From Collinsella provencensis (GTDB lineage Bacteria > Actinomycetota > Coriobacteriia > Coriobacteriales > Coriobacteriaceae), in contig NZ_LT904908.1 of NCBI RefSeq assembly GCF_900199705.1, forward strand, positions 71,426 to 135,425: a stretch of DNA of 64,000 nt, in the 5' to 3' direction. Shown one piece after another: positions 5,392 through 38,858 of the stretch (within the stretch, counting starts at the first letter, position 1; each line of letters begins with the position of its first letter). The translations under genes and the position numbers were made by a program. Below the pieces are notes generated by a model, which was not told where the DNA came from, did not search any database, and was given only the letters and a program-made list of their open reading frames with translations.

Positions 5392-6483
5392 CTACTGTTT
5401 GTCTGCAGGGAAAGTCACGCCCATCTGACGGCGTGCTTCATCCATGACAGCAAGCGATGCGAGCGTAACGGCGCGGAAGCTTCCCACGGTTCCGAAGGGG
5501 CCAGCGGGAGCTTCAGCCGGCTTGGTACCGGCGGCGACTGCCTCGCATGCAGCGGTGAAGTCCTCGACTTCGTGCAACATGAGATTGGCGGGCTGGGCGG
5601 GGAGCTCAAGTTCGCTCGTGACGGTTTGAGCGACCGAATAGCCAAGGGAACCGAGCGATGGATTCTGGACGCGCATATCGAGGCGCACGTGTTCGGGATT
5701 TGCGATGGCGTCGATCGTGAGCGTGCCGAGTTCTCCTTCGATTTGGCTTTCGGCGAGGTCGTTGACGTTCTTGGCATGATGCGTGCTGGCTACCATGTTG
5801 GGGTAGGTTGCCAAGATGATGCCTGCGCAGTCGATGGGACCATTCGTGAGGTCATAGAGGGACTCATCGAGCAGGGCACCTGCCGCCTTGACCGAAGTGG
5901 GAGCACCGAATAGGGCGATGAGAGGTTCGACGCTATAGATTCCGATGTCCATGAGCGAACCGGTGGCCAAATTGCAATCAAAGACGTTCGAGTGACGCCC
6001 GGCGAGAATATCCTCGTAACGGGTTGAGTATTTGCCGAAGCGAATGGTGGCGCGGCGGATAGTTCCCAGCTGGGGGAGGGTATCGCGTATTGCGTAGAAC
6101 GCCGGGTCGTGAAGTGGGCGCATGCCGTCGAATGCAACGACGCCCGCTGCGTCGGCGGCGCCGAACACCTCACGGGCTTCGCGCTGGTTGGCGCAGAAGG
6201 ATTTCTCGACGAAGACATGCTTGCCGCCGGCGATGCAGGTAAGAGCATGGTCGTGATGGAGGGCGTTGGGGCTTGCCACGTATACGGCGTCGACTTCGGG
6301 ATGGGAGGCCATTTCCTCAACAGAGGCGAACGAATAGGCGCCGCCGTGCTCTGCCGTGAACTTCGCCGCGCGCTCAGCGTCACGCGAACAGGCGCCGATG
6401 AATGTCGCACCGGGAGTTTGGGAGATTGCATCGATGAATACGGAGGTGATGGTGTTGGTGCCAATGGTTGCGATGCGGATCAT
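5392..6483 (-). CDS. Gfo/Idh/MocA-family oxidoreductase
   Basis: A 363-residue NAD(P)-dependent sugar or cyclitol-type dehydrogenase. ATG at 6483 follows AAGGAG; an in-frame extension to 6558 lacks a ribosome-binding site. The N-terminal Rossmann fold begins MIRIATIGTN and is followed by FIGACSRD. VDAVYVASPNALHH and GKHVFVEKSF (the EKP motif reads EKS here) are typical of the family. The C-terminal part holds the substrate-binding alpha/beta domain. It stands as a single gene and the substrate is unknown. Confidence 0.9.
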   Translation of the reverse strand: MIRIATIGTNTITSVFIDAISQTPGATFIGACSRDAERAAKFTAEHGGAYSFASVEEMASHPEVDAVYVASPNALHHDHALTCIAGGKHVFVEKSFCANQREAREVFGAADAAGVVAFDGMRPLHDPAFYAIRDTLPQLGTIRRATIRFGKYSTRYEDILAGRHSNVFDCNLATGSLMDIGIYSVEPLIALFGAPTSVKAAGALLDESLYDLTNGPIDCAGIILATYPNMVASTHHAKNVNDLAESQIEGELGTLTIDAIANPEHVRLDMRVQNPSLGSLGYSVAQTVTSELELPAQPANLMLHEVEDFTAACEAVAAGTKPAEAPAGPFGTVGSFRAVTLASLAVMDEARRQMGVTFPADKQ

Positions 6484-31503: not shown

Positions 31504-31643
31504 CGGACGCAGATGAACAGAGCCAGGGTCTTGTAAGGTACGTGTTTCTTTTAGGTTTCCGAATGCCGAGACAGCTGTCACTCCACTTCGATGGAGTAAC
31601 CTATGGCCAGCACGCGGAACTTTGTCACATTAAGTTGTAAGCG

Positions 31644-31685
31644 AGAAGGGGATGGGCCCCTTCTGGTTGCGCCGTGCGGAAGGGG
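31644..31685 (+). promoter_or_regulatory. Two mutually exclusive leader hairpins before the second binding-protein gene
   Basis: AGAAGGGG (31644-31651) can pair with CCCCTTCT (31657-31664), or that same CCCCTTC can pair with GAAGGGG (31679-31685). Neither is followed by a T-run; the ribosome-binding site AGGAGG begins at about 31701. The arrangement allows two RNA states before translation, but no known riboswitch core is recognised in 31504-31713. Confidence 0.35.
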
Positions 31686-32722: not shown

Positions 32723-33916
32723 ATGAGTACCGTTTTTTCGAGCGCGCCCGCGCGTGGCCGTTTCGCTTCGTTCGTGCTAAACGACCACCGTTATGTGCTG
32801 CTCGGGACGAGCGCGGTGGCGTTTATCGGCATGATGCTGTCCAGCATGTCTCGCCCCGCGCTCAGCTTCCTCGCACCGTATTACACGGTCGAGCTTGTCA
32901 TGTATTACGTGCTGGTGGCATGGCTGGTGCTGAGCGCCATCGCCCTGGCATTCAAAGTCATGTACCGAGAGCGTTATGCGGCCAAAGCCCCGTTTGCACG
33001 TGCGGGTGTCAAACAGGCTGTGCGCTACGGCTCGTATATCGTGTGGGCCATCACGGCGGTTTTCATTCTCGACCGCTTGGTTATGGGAATCGCCTCGGCA
33101 TGGACTGCAGCGCTCGCAGCAACAGCCCGTCCGCAGGATGACCTGCTGCAGGGCATGTTCTACATCGTGTGGCATGACCGCTACACGTTCTTGGCAGGTC
33201 TTATCACCACGATCGAGCTTGCCGTGTTCGGTACCATTGCGGCGTTCTTCCTCGCACTGCTGCTCGCGTTTTGCCGCATCCAGAAAATCGACCGTGCGGA
33301 TAACGACTTTATGCGCGCCGTCAAAAGTGTTGCCTGCAGTTTTGCCAAGGGCTACAGCACCGTGATTCGCGGCACGCCCATGATGATTCAGGCCATGATC
33401 ATTTATCCCGCGATCTTTGGCCTGCTCAAGGGTACCGGTATGTCCACCACCGAGGTCAATGCCGTGTGGACGCCGTTTTGGGGCGGTTTGCTCACCATCA
33501 TCCTCAACTCCACGGCGTACATGATGGAGGTGCTGCGCGGCGGTATCGAGGCGGTCGACCCCGGCCAGATGGAAGGTGCCCGTTCGCTCGGCCTTTCGCA
33601 GTGGCAGGCCATGACGCGCGTGGTGTTCCCCCAGGGCATCAAACATGCCATCCCCGGTCTGTCTAACGAGCTCGTGGTGAACATCAAGGACTCCTCGGTT
33701 CTTTCGGTTATCGGCACGTTCGATTTGATGTTTGCCAACACAACCGTGACGGGCATCTATTACAACCAGCTGCAGCCCAGTCTTATCTCGGCGGCAATTT
33801 ACCTGTGCCTCACCATGATCGCCTCGTGGCTGCTCGGCAAGTTCGCGCGTCATTTCGATGTGCAGCCCGAGCCGCTCGGCAGCACGTCCGATCAGACGCT
33901 GGTGGGAGAGGAGTAG
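32723..33916 (+). CDS. Amino-acid ABC transporter permease
   Basis: A 397-residue permease. The first ~150 residues carry three or four additional hydrophobic segments (for example YVLLGTSAVAFIGMMLSSM) not found in minimal GlnP-type proteins. The core starts FLAGLITTIELAVFGTIAAF and includes STVIRGTPMMIQAMIIYPAI and the docking loop AVDPGQMEGARSLGLSQWQ. AAGGAG precedes ATG 32723. It is followed after 3 bases by its ATPase gene. Confidence 0.93.
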   Translation: MSTVFSSAPARGRFASFVLNDHRYVLLGTSAVAFIGMMLSSMSRPALSFLAPYYTVELVMYYVLVAWLVLSAIALAFKVMYRERYAAKAPFARAGVKQAVRYGSYIVWAITAVFILDRLVMGIASAWTAALAATARPQDDLLQGMFYIVWHDRYTFLAGLITTIELAVFGTIAAFFLALLLAFCRIQKIDRADNDFMRAVKSVACSFAKGYSTVIRGTPMMIQAMIIYPAIFGLLKGTGMSTTEVNAVWTPFWGGLLTIILNSTAYMMEVLRGGIEAVDPGQMEGARSLGLSQWQAMTRVVFPQGIKHAIPGLSNELVVNIKDSSVLSVIGTFDLMFANTTVTGIYYNQLQPSLISAAIYLCLTMIASWLLGKFARHFDVQPEPLGSTSDQTLVGEE

Positions 33917-33919
33917 ACC

Positions 33920-34729
<810 letters not shown>

Positions 34730-35511: not shown

Positions 35512-35539
35512 TTGTGCTGCAAGCGCTTTAGGCTACTAT
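35512..35539 (+). promoter_or_regulatory. Candidate promoter of the arg leader and argGH
   Basis: TTGTGC (35512-35517) and TACTAT (35534-35539) with a 16-base spacer, about 90 bases before the leader ORF. It would give a leader transcript of roughly 430 bases before argG. Confidence 0.45.
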
Positions 35540-35629: not shown

Positions 35630-35743
35630 GTGACTCAGGCACTGGCTACATATCAGGCTCTGGCGGATTCCGCCATCATGCCCGGCCAGAACGCCGCCAC
35701 TGCGAACCGCCGACGCCAGCGTGCAATCTCTCGACGACGATAA
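35630..35743 (+). CDS. Arginine-rich leader peptide (attenuation control of argGH)
   Basis: A 37-codon ORF from GTG 35630, with GAAAGG nine bases upstream. The last 11 codons read R-R-R-Q-R-A-I-S-R-R-R before TAA, i.e. seven arginine codons (CGC, CGA, CGC, CGT, then CGA three times). Its 3' end (35728-35734 and 35737-35743) can pair for 14 bp with 35808-35814 and 35800-35806, just ahead of a terminator at 35818-35843. Arginine starvation should stall ribosomes on these codons. The ORF is open further upstream to 35459, but the likely promoter lies inside that extension. By analogy with his/trp/thr leaders this is a strong attenuation leader; the exact switch is inferred. Confidence 0.75.
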   Translation: MTQALATYQALADSAIMPGQNAATANRRRQRAISRRR

Positions 35744-35817
35744 CTCGTTGCCCCTGTTGTCATGAAGGTCGCACGTGGCCTTCGCCGGGACCCAATCGAT
35801 TATCGTTTCGAGAGAGT

Positions 35818-35843
35818 AACCGCCTCAAGGGCGGTTTTCTTTT
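35818..35843 (+). terminator. Attenuator hairpin upstream of argG
   Basis: AACCGCC (35818-35824) pairs with GGCGGTT (35830-35836) and is followed by TTCTTTT. It stands 74 bases after the leader-peptide stop and 138 bases before argG. The same AACCGCC occurs within the leader ORF at 35705-35711, offering a competing partner for the 3' arm. Confidence 0.75.
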
Positions 35844-35980
35844 ATCTCGCCATGGCAGGCGTACATCGCGCCCATCGCCATAGTACGCAACCTGCCATGC
35901 GCCTCAAACTCTCAAAGTGATACCGCTGTCGATTGGGTCCATCCCTCTTTCGGTGTAAACGTCGATGAAAGGACGAACCC

Positions 35981-37276
35981 ATGAGCAAGGAACTCACCAA
36001 GGAAAAAGTCGTACTCGCGTACTCGGGCGGCCTCGATACGTCTGTCTGCATCAAATGGCTGCAAAATGAGATGAACCTTGACGTCATTGCCATGCTCGGC
36101 AACGTCGGCCAGGAGCATGACGGTCTTGAGAAGATCGCGGAAAAGGCGAAGATGCTCGGCTGCGTCGCCGTCGAGGTCGTGGACATGGTCGACGAGTTCG
36201 CCTCTGAGTACCTCACCTGTGCCATCGCCGCCAACGCCATGTATGAAAATAAGTATCCGCTGCTTTCCGCCCTGTCGCGTCCGCTCATCTCCGCACACTT
36301 GGTGGATGTCGCGCATACGTACGGCGCTGCTTATGTTGCCCACGGTTGCACGGGCAAGGGTAATGACCAGGTGCGCTTTGAGACCTCCATCGCCACGCTC
36401 GACCCATCTCTCAAGGTGATCGCCCCCGTGCGTGAGTGGGACCTCGGTATGCGTCCCGACGAGATCGCATATGCCAAGGCGAACGGCGTCCCGGTGGCGC
36501 AGAGCATCGAGAAGCCCTATTCCATCGACGATAACCTGTGGGGTCGTGCTATCGAAGCGGGTGTGCTCGAGGATCCATGGGCTGAGCCGCCGGCGGACAT
36601 TTGGACCATGACGTGCGATCCGGTTGACGCCCCCAATGAGCCAACCTATGTCGAGGTCGGTTTCAAGGCCGGCGTACCGTGCAGTCTCGACGGCGCCAAG
36701 ATGCCGCTGCCCGCGCTCATCGCTCAGCTCAACGGTATCGCAGGCGAGAATGGGTTCGGCCGTATCGACATGATTGAAAACCGCTACGTGGGCCTCAAGT
36801 CCCGCGAGTGCTATGAGGTTCCAGCTGGTCTCGCTCTCATTCAGGCTCACAAGGCGCTCGAAGACCTGTGCCTGGAGCGCGACGTGCTCCATCACAAACT
36901 CGCCCTTGAGCAGCTTTGGGCCGACCAGGTGTACAACGGTCGCTGGTTCAGCCCGTTCAAACAGGCGCTCGATGCGTTCATGTCCTCTACGCAGCAACAG
37001 CTCACCGGTGCGGTCAAGCTCAAGTTCTACAAGGGCGGCTGCGTGGTGGTGGGTCGTTCCTCTGCCGCAGCGCTCTACGATGCCGCGCTTGCCACCTATG
37101 ACAACGACGACGCCTTCGATCAGAAGGCCGCCAAGGGCTTCATCGACATCCAGGGTCTTTCCCTCAAAACGTGGGCGACCAAGAAGGCGGCACTCGAGGC
37201 CCCTTCGCAAAGCGCCGCTTTCGATGTGGTGGCGGGGACGCAGCCCGTCGCTTATGGCAAGGCGGTCAACTACTAG
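35981..37276 (+). CDS. argG: Argininosuccinate synthase
   Basis: A 431-residue enzyme that joins citrulline and aspartate using ATP. The N-terminal ATP-binding loop is VVLAYSGGLDTSVCIKWL, then VAHGCTGKGNDQVRFE, YSIDDNLWGRAIEAGVLEDP, GRIDMIENRYVGLKSRE and VYNGRWFSPFKQALD. It is about 30 residues longer than many ArgG proteins, with the extra part at the C-terminus. ATG 35981 follows AAAGGACG. It is followed by argH and is likely controlled by the arginine leader upstream. Confidence 0.96.
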   Translation: MSKELTKEKVVLAYSGGLDTSVCIKWLQNEMNLDVIAMLGNVGQEHDGLEKIAEKAKMLGCVAVEVVDMVDEFASEYLTCAIAANAMYENKYPLLSALSRPLISAHLVDVAHTYGAAYVAHGCTGKGNDQVRFETSIATLDPSLKVIAPVREWDLGMRPDEIAYAKANGVPVAQSIEKPYSIDDNLWGRAIEAGVLEDPWAEPPADIWTMTCDPVDAPNEPTYVEVGFKAGVPCSLDGAKMPLPALIAQLNGIAGENGFGRIDMIENRYVGLKSRECYEVPAGLALIQAHKALEDLCLERDVLHHKLALEQLWADQVYNGRWFSPFKQALDAFMSSTQQQLTGAVKLKFYKGGCVVVGRSSAAALYDAALATYDNDDAFDQKAAKGFIDIQGLSLKTWATKKAALEAPSQSAAFDVVAGTQPVAYGKAVNY

Positions 37277-37346: not shown

Positions 37347-37374
37347 CGCACGCCTGTTTTGCGGCAGGCGTGCG
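37347..37374 (+). other. Intercistronic hairpin between argG and argH
   Basis: CGCACGCCTG pairs perfectly with CAGGCGTGCG around an 8-base loop. No T-run follows, so it is more likely an RNA-processing or stability element than a terminator. Confidence 0.5.
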
Positions 37375-37430
37375 TTCGGGTGTTGCGCGGCCTCGCGATA
37401 GGGGCAGCGCAGGTGAGAGGAGCAATGCAC

Positions 37431-38858
37431 ATGGCGCTTTGGGGCGGACGATTCGAGGGAACGGTCGCGACTTCCACACAAGAGTTTGGCGCGTCGCTGC
37501 CGGTTGACAAGTACCTGTATAAGCAGGATATCGCGGCGTCGAAGGCACATGCCGCGATGCTTGCCAAGCAGCGGATCATCAGCCTCGAGGACGCTGAGGC
37601 CATCACGGCGGGGCTCTCCGCCATCGAGGCGGATATCGAGGCCGGCTCGTTCGCGTTCGACATCAACGACGAGGACATCCATATGGCGGTGGAGTCCGAG
37701 CTCACGCGTCGCATCGGCGAGGCGGGAAAGCGCCTGCATACGGGGCGTTCGCGCAACGATCAGGTGGCAACCGATACGCGCCTTGCCGCCAAGGCGCTTG
37801 CCAAGCAGCTGATGGAAGCGAACCTGCAGCTCCGCCATACATTGGTGGATGTGGCGAACGCTCACCCCAAGGCGGTGTTTCCCGGTATGACGCACCTGCA
37901 GCATGCGCAGCCGGTGCTCTTCTCCCATCATCTGCTGGTGTATTACTGGATGTTCACGCGCGATTTCAAGCGCCTGCTCGCGGCGTTCCAGGCGGCCGAC
38001 GCCAGTCCGCTCGGCGCGGCGGCGCTTGCGGGGACCTCGTATCCGCTCGACCGTGTGGCATCTGCTTACGCCATGGGTTTTACGCAGGTGATTCCCAATT
38101 CGCTCGACGCGGTGAGTGACCGAGATTTCCTGCTCGACCTGCATTATGCATGCAGCACCATGGCTCTGCACCTTTCGCGTCTGTCCGAGGAAATCGTGCT
38201 GTGGAGTACCACGGAATTCGGCTTTATCACGCTTTCGGACGAGTTTTCCACGGGCTCATCCATCATGCCCCAGAAAAAGAACCCCGATTTCGCCGAGCTC
38301 ATTCGCGGTAAGACGGGTCGTGTGTATGGCAACTTGCTGCAGCTGTTCGTTACATGCAAGGGTTTGCCGTTGGCGTACAACAAAGATCTGCAGGAGGACA
38401 AGGAGGGCGCACTCGATTCTGCCCGTACGCTGCTGCAGAGCCTCGAGGTGATGGCGGGGATGATAAAAACGATGACCGTGAACACGGATGCCATGCGTGT
38501 GGCGTGCAACAAGGGGCATTTGGCGGCGACCGATGTGGCGGATTACCTCGTCAAGCATGGCATGGCGTTTCGTGAGGCCCATGCGATCGTGGGCGGTCTT
38601 GTGCTCGAATGCGAGCATCGCGGATGCCAACTCGATGAGTTGCCGTTTGAAGTGTTCCAGGAGGCGAGCCCGCTATTTGGCAAGGACATCGCAAACGCGC
38701 TCGATATCAAAGCCGTTGTCTCGGCTCGTTTTACCGAAGGCGGTACGGCTCCTGCGGCAGTGAGGGAGCAGATGAAGCTCGTGTGCTCATCGCTCGTTGC
38801 CGACGAGGCGGCGCTGATGGGCCTTTCGCCGGTGATTGAGATGGGAAACCTGAGCTGA
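37431..38858 (+). CDS. argH: Argininosuccinate lyase
   Basis: A 475-residue member of the fumarase/aspartase superfamily that splits argininosuccinate into arginine and fumarate. The N-terminus MALWGGRFEG, DIHMAVESELTRRIGEAGKR, LHTGRSRNDQVATDTRL, FPGMTHLQHAQPVLFSHHLL and the signature loop GSSIMPQKKNPDFAELIRGK are all present; the catalytic Ser lies in that loop. ATG 37431 is preferred over 37425 because GAGGAG is then eight bases away. It completes the two last steps of arginine synthesis with argG. Confidence 0.96.
   Translation: MALWGGRFEGTVATSTQEFGASLPVDKYLYKQDIAASKAHAAMLAKQRIISLEDAEAITAGLSAIEADIEAGSFAFDINDEDIHMAVESELTRRIGEAGKRLHTGRSRNDQVATDTRLAAKALAKQLMEANLQLRHTLVDVANAHPKAVFPGMTHLQHAQPVLFSHHLLVYYWMFTRDFKRLLAAFQAADASPLGAAALAGTSYPLDRVASAYAMGFTQVIPNSLDAVSDRDFLLDLHYACSTMALHLSRLSEEIVLWSTTEFGFITLSDEFSTGSSIMPQKKNPDFAELIRGKTGRVYGNLLQLFVTCKGLPLAYNKDLQEDKEGALDSARTLLQSLEVMAGMIKTMTVNTDAMRVACNKGHLAATDVADYLVKHGMAFREAHAIVGGLVLECEHRGCQLDELPFEVFQEASPLFGKDIANALDIKAVVSARFTEGGTAPAAVREQMKLVCSSLVADEAALMGLSPVIEMGNLS

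Follow-up and report, generated by a model that had tools for sequence, protein, structure and literature searches.

The window, a 64,000-nucleotide stretch of the 1.74-Mb genome of Collinsella provencensis (G000), carries argG and argH, encoding argininosuccinate synthase and argininosuccinate lyase, preceded by a leader that comprises a short arginine-rich open reading frame (ORF), a set of RNA helices, here called P0 to P5, and an intrinsic terminator. The features are as follows.

35534–35539 (+): probable −10 element, TACTAT, of the leader promoter, assigned from TTTAGGCTACTAT, which is common to the related leaders L007, L013 and L018
35615–35620 (+): Shine-Dalgarno (SD) site of the leader ORF, GAAAGG, read from the sequence
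35630–35743 (+): leader ORF with a GTG start, 37 sense codons and TAA, MTQALATYQALADSAIMPGQNAATANRRRQRAISRRR, from the sequence and its homologues
35711–35743 (+): conserved C-terminal block of the ORF, RRQRAISRRR-stop, by comparison
35735–35750 (+): P0, the ORF end (35735–35740) with 35745–35750 directly past the stop, from folding and the RNAalifold consensus
35728–35816 (+): P1, the ORF end (35728–35743) with 35800–35816, from pairing and the arm-swap test
35751–35789 (+): P2, a hairpin within P1, limits approximate, from folding and the arm-swap test
35788–35800 (+): P3, 5′ arm, from the arm-swap test
35928–35940 (+): P3, 3′ arm, forming 13 pairs with 35788–35800, from the arm-swap test
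35818–35843 (+): intrinsic terminator, a hairpin (35818–35836) with a U-rich tail to 35843, adjoining P1, from scan and folding
35908–35921 (+): P4, a possible second partner of the P1 3′ arm, from folding, strong in the window and not general
35933–35982 (+): P5, predicted pairing of 35933–35952 with the argG SD and start region (35967–35982), sharing 6 nt with the P3 3′ arm
35981–37276 (+): argG, by NCBIfam match
37359–38858 (+): argH, by NCBIfam match from residue 27 on

The true start of argH probably lies inside the listed ORF limits. A consensus promoter scan listed no plus-strand promoter at 35534–35539, and the leader peptide matched no family. Directly upstream of the leader, at 32723–34729 (+), are genes for the permease and ATPase of an ABC transporter of the polar amino-acid type, with no match at cut-off among the listed NCBIfam equivalogs, and further upstream, at 31610–31683 (+), is a Corio-PBP RNA (RF02945; 82 bits, E 4.3e-15). 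Rfam gave only sub-threshold matches at the leader itself, and no T-box matched at the gathering threshold in the window or in eight relatives.

The leader peptide and its distribution

The initial annotation had proposed an Arg-codon leader peptide ahead of argGH, a 37-codon ORF with seven arginine codons among its last eleven and CGA-CGA-CGA at the stop, and its coordinates were right. The tail reads CGC-CGA-CGC-CAG-CGT-GCA-ATC-TCT-CGA-CGA-CGA-TAA. Across all six frames of the window, at least seven arginine codons among the last eleven occur at 2 of 1183 open stop codons, the other being the stop codon that ends at 6242 (+).

In a comparison of argG upstream regions, the check that the annotation had suggested, both the arginine-rich ORF end and P1, which covaries (see below), proved to be kept. 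An ORF ending in RR-(Q/R)-R-(A/T)-I-(S/A)-RRR-stop lies upstream of argG at 31 of 32 argG loci of the genus and at none of 18 loci of other families; the lone exception in the genus, L026 of genome G025, has a short upstream region without a leader. A search with a DNA pattern for the ORF end gave exactly one occurrence in each of 39 of the 43 genus genomes, and a backward control gave none. The four genomes without a single copy are G025 and three without a full argG match (G020, G023 and G027), of which G023 and G027 are incomplete. A looser pattern found 45 stretches in a collection of named genomes, with an argG start 163–395 nt downstream in 41. The sequence of another match, L088, ends right after an argG-like start. 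Three matches in other phyla (L054, L070 and L074) were excluded, as no argG was found. The named records with the element are chiefly Collinsella, with Enorma, Candidatus Limicola and Coriobacteriaceae.

For comparison, 43 distinct leaders were reduced to 26 non-redundant ones at about 90% similarity, 17 from the argG search and nine from the DNA pattern (L053, L062, L067, L069, L077, L082, L085, L088 and L093). A 41-row set of leaders lacks L051 and L121, for which no start was recognised. Of 297 genomes of the order searched with a model built from the 26, 47 have the element, many of them sources of the model; all 47 belong to a single family, and to 3 of 107 genera. The element was absent from 14 listed genomes of three other genera of the same family, all of which have an argG match, partial in one of them, and a plasmid collection gave no match to it.

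The codon pattern points to selection on the C-terminal peptide, because differences within the last ten codons fall almost entirely at third positions and those in the preceding 18 codons are spread evenly. Comparing the 26 leaders in 325 pairs gives, for the last ten codons, 74 differences at first, 88 at second and 763 at third codon positions, 633 of the codon differences being synonymous and 162 nonsynonymous. For the 18 codons 5′ of them, in 22 leaders, the counts are 1374, 1403 and 1394, with no sign of protein-level constraint. Motif codons 1, 8, 9 and 10 are CGA and codon 2 is CGC in all 26 leaders, nine of which were found by a DNA pattern that fixes some of those bases; across 42 long ORFs of the window, CGA makes up 9.7% of arginine codons. 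Between the arginine blocks, Ala is kept in 25 of 26 leaders, Ile in all 26 and Ser in 24. Towards the N terminus the ORFs vary across clades, and those of C. aerofaciens are short. With an in-frame, conserved arginine end and changes at third positions, the leader ORF has the product-codon character expected of an attenuator, and as judged from conservation and codon pattern its identification as an Arg-codon leader peptide is strongly supported.

Conservation of the C-terminal residues in a set chosen partly by DNA pattern is also what an arrest peptide might leave, RRQRAISRRR in the exit tunnel halting the ribosome at the stop codon or the CGA run with free arginine or another molecule as effector, beyond uncharged tRNA-Arg alone. 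The conservation of residues that include Ala, Ile and Ser while their codons vary, together with the unconstrained 18 codons before the conserved peptide, would fit such an arrest. Part of that conservation, however, was imposed by selecting nine of the 26 leaders by DNA pattern, and the leader codons also take part in RNA pairs; we consider an arrest peptide unlikely. The same conserved residues might instead belong to a small arginine-rich protein with a function of its own. That reading, and with it the idea of an incidental leader with argG under the control of ArgR alone, appears highly improbable to us, as the N-terminal parts are clade-specific, the C. aerofaciens ORFs are short, and P3 and P2 covary in the non-coding part of the leader.

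Helices of the leader RNA

To assess each helix, the duplex energy of a leader's own arms was compared with that of arms swapped between leaders in 20,000 permutations; the arms are short and were picked from the sequences by the analyst. In 14 leaders spread over the clades, P3 averaged −16.7 kcal/mol with its own arms and −9.8 kcal/mol with swapped ones, and no permutation was as good. As good were 1 permutation for P2, 1 for P1 (ORF arm) and 21 for P1 with its inner extension, and in all 26 leaders 0 for P3, P2 and P1 and 10 for P1 with the extension. Displaced P3 arms gave no signal (6456, 15,853 and 18,260 of 20,000 permutations as good). P1 lies where the initial annotation had placed it, as a 14-bp pairing of 35728–35743 with 35800–35814, and can be extended to 35816; its 3′ arm was better than shuffles in 24 of 26 leaders.

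P3 is the best supported element, linking the leader to the segment just 5′ of the argG SD site. Standard pairs of several types occur at each of its positions 4 to 9, pair 6, for instance, as CG, AU and UA. In an ungapped nine-pair frame, all nine standard pairs form in 18 of 26 leaders and fewer in L016, L020, L025, L053, L062, L069, L085 and L088. An initial duplex search for P3 over a wide range was discarded as noisy, since in 10 of the 26 leaders over 10 of 100 shuffles did equally well. RNAalifold on a plain MAFFT alignment returned no structure other than P0 and a small hairpin, neither showing two-sided changes, probably because loop lengths differ between leaders. P4 was set aside as a core element: it is strong in the window, missing from the predicted fold of L007, and formed by different letters in some members of the tanakaei/aerofaciens group.

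Two further conserved stretches were observed. Nine leaders (L023, L045, L046, L047, L048, L067, L077, L082 and L093) carry, between the leader ORF and argG and 5′ of the P3 3′ arm, a nearly palindromic block close to GTGTGCGCAGCGCA or GTATGCGCAGCGCA. On its unpaired side, P2 (35756–35764 in the window, and the equivalent positions elsewhere) is in many leaders more conserved than a simple stem requires, with a consensus near GTTCGCATG, possibly reflecting contact with a protein, a ligand or another part of the RNA.

P5, like P3, had escaped the initial annotation, whose set of elements was otherwise right in P1 and the terminator hairpin. In the predicted folds, P5 takes up three or more nucleotides of the argG SD region in 24 of 26 leaders, and in 22 it includes one or more of the AUG, thus placing a helix over the ribosome-binding site as in a translational attenuator. 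Its covariation is borderline, with 1171 of 20,000 permutations as good in 14 leaders and 152 in 26; a displaced P5 arm gave no signal (12,542). In L016 and L019, the argG loci of genomes G008 and G017, whose ArgG proteins are 97.8% identical, codon 2 of argG (GGC or AGC) and the facing P5 arm both differ and the pairing is kept. The ArgG proteins of these two loci are 86% identical to those of another family of the order (L044 and L049) and about 61% to that of the window; the gene behind the leader seems to have been exchanged there and the leader kept.

The helices compete for the same nucleotides. P5 and P3 share at least 3 nt, between the P5 5′ arm and the P3 3′ arm, in 25 of 26 leaders, and at its other end the P3 5′ arm overlaps P2 in all 26, with P1 plus its inner extension overlapping P3 in 24. 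With P5 blocked by P3, and P3 in turn overlapped by P1 and P2, the core of the leader thus resembles a leader-peptide switch acting on argG translation. Opening the SD and start region costs 6.3 kcal/mol with P3 enforced and 8.6 kcal/mol without it. Enforcing P3 makes opening easier by more than 0.5 kcal/mol in 21 of 26 leaders and harder in 3; merely allowing it makes opening easier in 18 and harder in 7. The mean probability of P3 is 0.45 with a ribosome at the stop codon versus 0.24 at the first arginine codon (p 0.011), higher at the stop by more than 0.1 in nine leaders and lower in two. The window's own P3 stays at 0.99 for all three ribosome positions, and the ensemble cost of SD opening is the same across ribosome positions (p 0.45). 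Equilibrium folding is weak evidence for leaders of this length, in which the co-transcriptional order of folding probably matters.

We propose, with moderate confidence, that the leader acts in cis on argGH as a sensor of arginine, with the ribosome that translates the leader ORF as its reader. The ORF, its C-terminal peptide, P1, P2 and P3 are established by comparison of the leaders, and P5 and the exclusions between folds are predicted; we infer that arginine shortage is the signal, and likewise the sign of the response, the sequence of steps and what the terminator does in the window. The position of the ribosome while the rest of the leader is being synthesized would select one of two exclusive folds. 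When the ORF end is free, it would pair as P1 with the arm 60–70 nt downstream, around P2, trapping the P3 5′ arm, so that P5 could shut the argG SD site and start codon and argG would be off. When charged tRNA-Arg is short, slow decoding of CGA-CGA-CGA would keep the ribosome on the last arginine codons or the stop; P1 would then be blocked, P3 would form and break P5, and argG would be translated. That argG should be on under arginine shortage is suggested by the pathway. A stall at the first arginine block would be predicted to favour P1, the off state, which counts against this translational scheme.

Terminators and transcription attenuation

The terminator hairpin that the initial annotation had placed at 35818–35843 next to P1 was recovered as a stem at 35818–35836 followed by a U-rich tail. 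A local scan saw 2 terminator-like patterns against 1.8 expected, and it is conservation in the window's clade, rather than this count, that argues for a genuine terminator. By the analyst's judgement, strong intrinsic terminators occur in 9 of 26 leaders (the scan flagged 14), five in the window's clade (the window, L007, L013, L014 and L018) and four in a sister clade. Two leaders, L082 and L088, were too short for the argG tree; in this tree the terminator leaders other than L088 form two groups, of five and three, requiring one change each. We suggest that the terminators would be additions, in these two clades, to a general translational device.

In the trp, his, leu and thr attenuators, a short ORF rich in codons for the product precedes alternative RNA folds and a terminator. 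The argG leader shares the product-codon ORF, the alternative folds and, in some lineages, the terminator. It differs from them in its arginine codons, in its conserved C-terminal peptide, in having strong terminators in only 9 of 26 leaders and in the long-range helix, common to all leaders, that reaches the structural gene's SD region.

Classical transcription attenuation as the main mechanism, with a stall at the first arginine codons giving P1 as antiterminator and a ribosome at the stop giving the terminator, is nonetheless suggested by several features. The terminator stands directly at the P1 3′ arm in all nine terminator leaders, and in the sister clade this arm doubles as the 5′ arm of the terminator; there, too, the upstream block carries RRRR, four successive arginine codons. 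The computed terminator probability, P(T), with the first arginine codon versus the stop in the A site, rises from 0.004 to 0.945 in L028, a sister-clade leader in which P1 and the terminator exclude each other, and from 0.63 to 0.98 in L088. The change is small, however, in L021 (0.93 to 0.98) and L024 (0.86 to 0.93). In the window's clade, the terminator begins 0–2 nt past P1 with no overlap, and P(T) is 0.945–0.996 at every codon position tested from the first arginine codon to the stop. Without a ribosome and with 60 nt of additional 5′ sequence, P(T) is 0.45 in the window, 0.41 in L018 and 0.97–0.98 in L007, L013 and L014. Since the terminator merely abuts P1 and is predicted at all arginine and stop positions, attenuation is unsupported in the window's clade. 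Of the attenuator that the initial annotation envisaged, the pieces are thus present and P1 is kept, and exclusion between P1 and the terminator is not seen in this clade. Its proposed competing partner, AACCGCC, which the first arginine codons (35705–35711) have in common with the terminator arm, occurs in the window and was rejected, being missing at that place in the other 25 leaders. With strong terminators confined to nine leaders in two clades of the argG tree, we regard classical attenuation as the main mechanism as possible but doubtful.

Under the translational scheme that we prefer, the sister clade might combine two steps. As P1 excludes the terminator there, a stall at the first arginine block would let transcription pass; but since the state that has the terminator also has P3, the transcriptional and translational signs conflict unless the steps are sequential. 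An early stall would spare transcription, and later arrival of the ribosome at the ORF end would open argG.

No description of a bacterial argG leader peptide was found in the titles, abstracts and passages of the open-licence literature, and term look-up returned no such motif in the main texts of PMC8632094, PMC2965389, PMC8040213 and PMC2864571. Similar in design is the LEU element before leuA (PMC1262725), described there as having a product-codon ORF, pairing that reaches the SD site and alternative folds, likewise in Actinobacteria. In the LEU element, the Leu codon run itself pairs with the leuA SD box, according to the passage on that element in PMC1262725; in the argG leader, the end of the arginine ORF pairs with the P1 3′ arm, not with the SD site. 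Passages of the same paper mention experiments in which the Leu codons were without effect, and report no conserved RNA structures ahead of arginine operons. As in the argG leader, the account of the speF leader ORF, orf34 (PMC6386406), has Arg codons in an ORF and a ribosome whose position sets the folds and exposes an SD site; orf34 differs in controlling ornithine decarboxylase, in having two Arg codons in a longer peptide and in involving Rho and RNase G. In Staphylococcus aureus, rbfL is likewise described as sensing arginine shortage through rare Arg codons in a leader peptide (PMC13009471), although its eight codons overlap the SD site and a ribosome stalled on them turns the gene off by occlusion. 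Arg-specific T-box leaders are presented in PMC1262725 as RNA control of arginine genes, and differ in that translation would be the sensor in the argG leader.

ArgR and arginine metabolism

Arginine synthesis is usually controlled by ArgR or by a T-box. An argR gene was found in 54 of 58 genomes searched, that of the window among them, and its presence would be compatible with ArgR alone controlling argG. Scans of 300 and 230 nt upstream of argG for sites resembling TATGCA-N6-TGCATA, with at most one mismatch, would speak against this: there were none in the 26 leader genomes. Such inverted repeats, which we take to be possible ARG boxes although the motif may not be that of this lineage, lie upstream of argG at 5 of 13 leader-less loci of sister genera (L160, L161, L164, L171 and L173) and at none of 7 other leader-less loci. 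The leader may thus have replaced an ArgR operator. In an extended form, to which we assign a low probability, an arginine-responsive arrest peptide acting through a P3-type helix on the argG SD region would have replaced that operator in a single lineage of gut Actinobacteria, and two clades would have acquired terminators at a later stage.

No match to ArgJ was found in G000 or in the genus genomes G005, G015, G020, G027 and G033; in G000, arginine deiminase gave three strong matches and ornithine carbamoyltransferase four above cut-off. Arginine control of argGH would suit this physiology: without an ArgJ match and with three deiminase matches, expression of argGH in the presence of arginine would presumably drive a wasteful arginine–citrulline cycle. 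In this common gut genus, argGH is preceded by a conserved leader-peptide RNA that has a helix to the SD region as its basis; as terminators are limited to two clades, the locus could reveal how control by leader peptides originates and moves between the transcriptional and translational levels.

The argC gene was located in 7 of 8 relatives. No conserved Arg leader precedes the argC operon in the eight, and the best ARG-box-like sites at argC, scored for a spacing of 6 only, have two mismatches. In L142, an arginine-rich frame lies close to argC.
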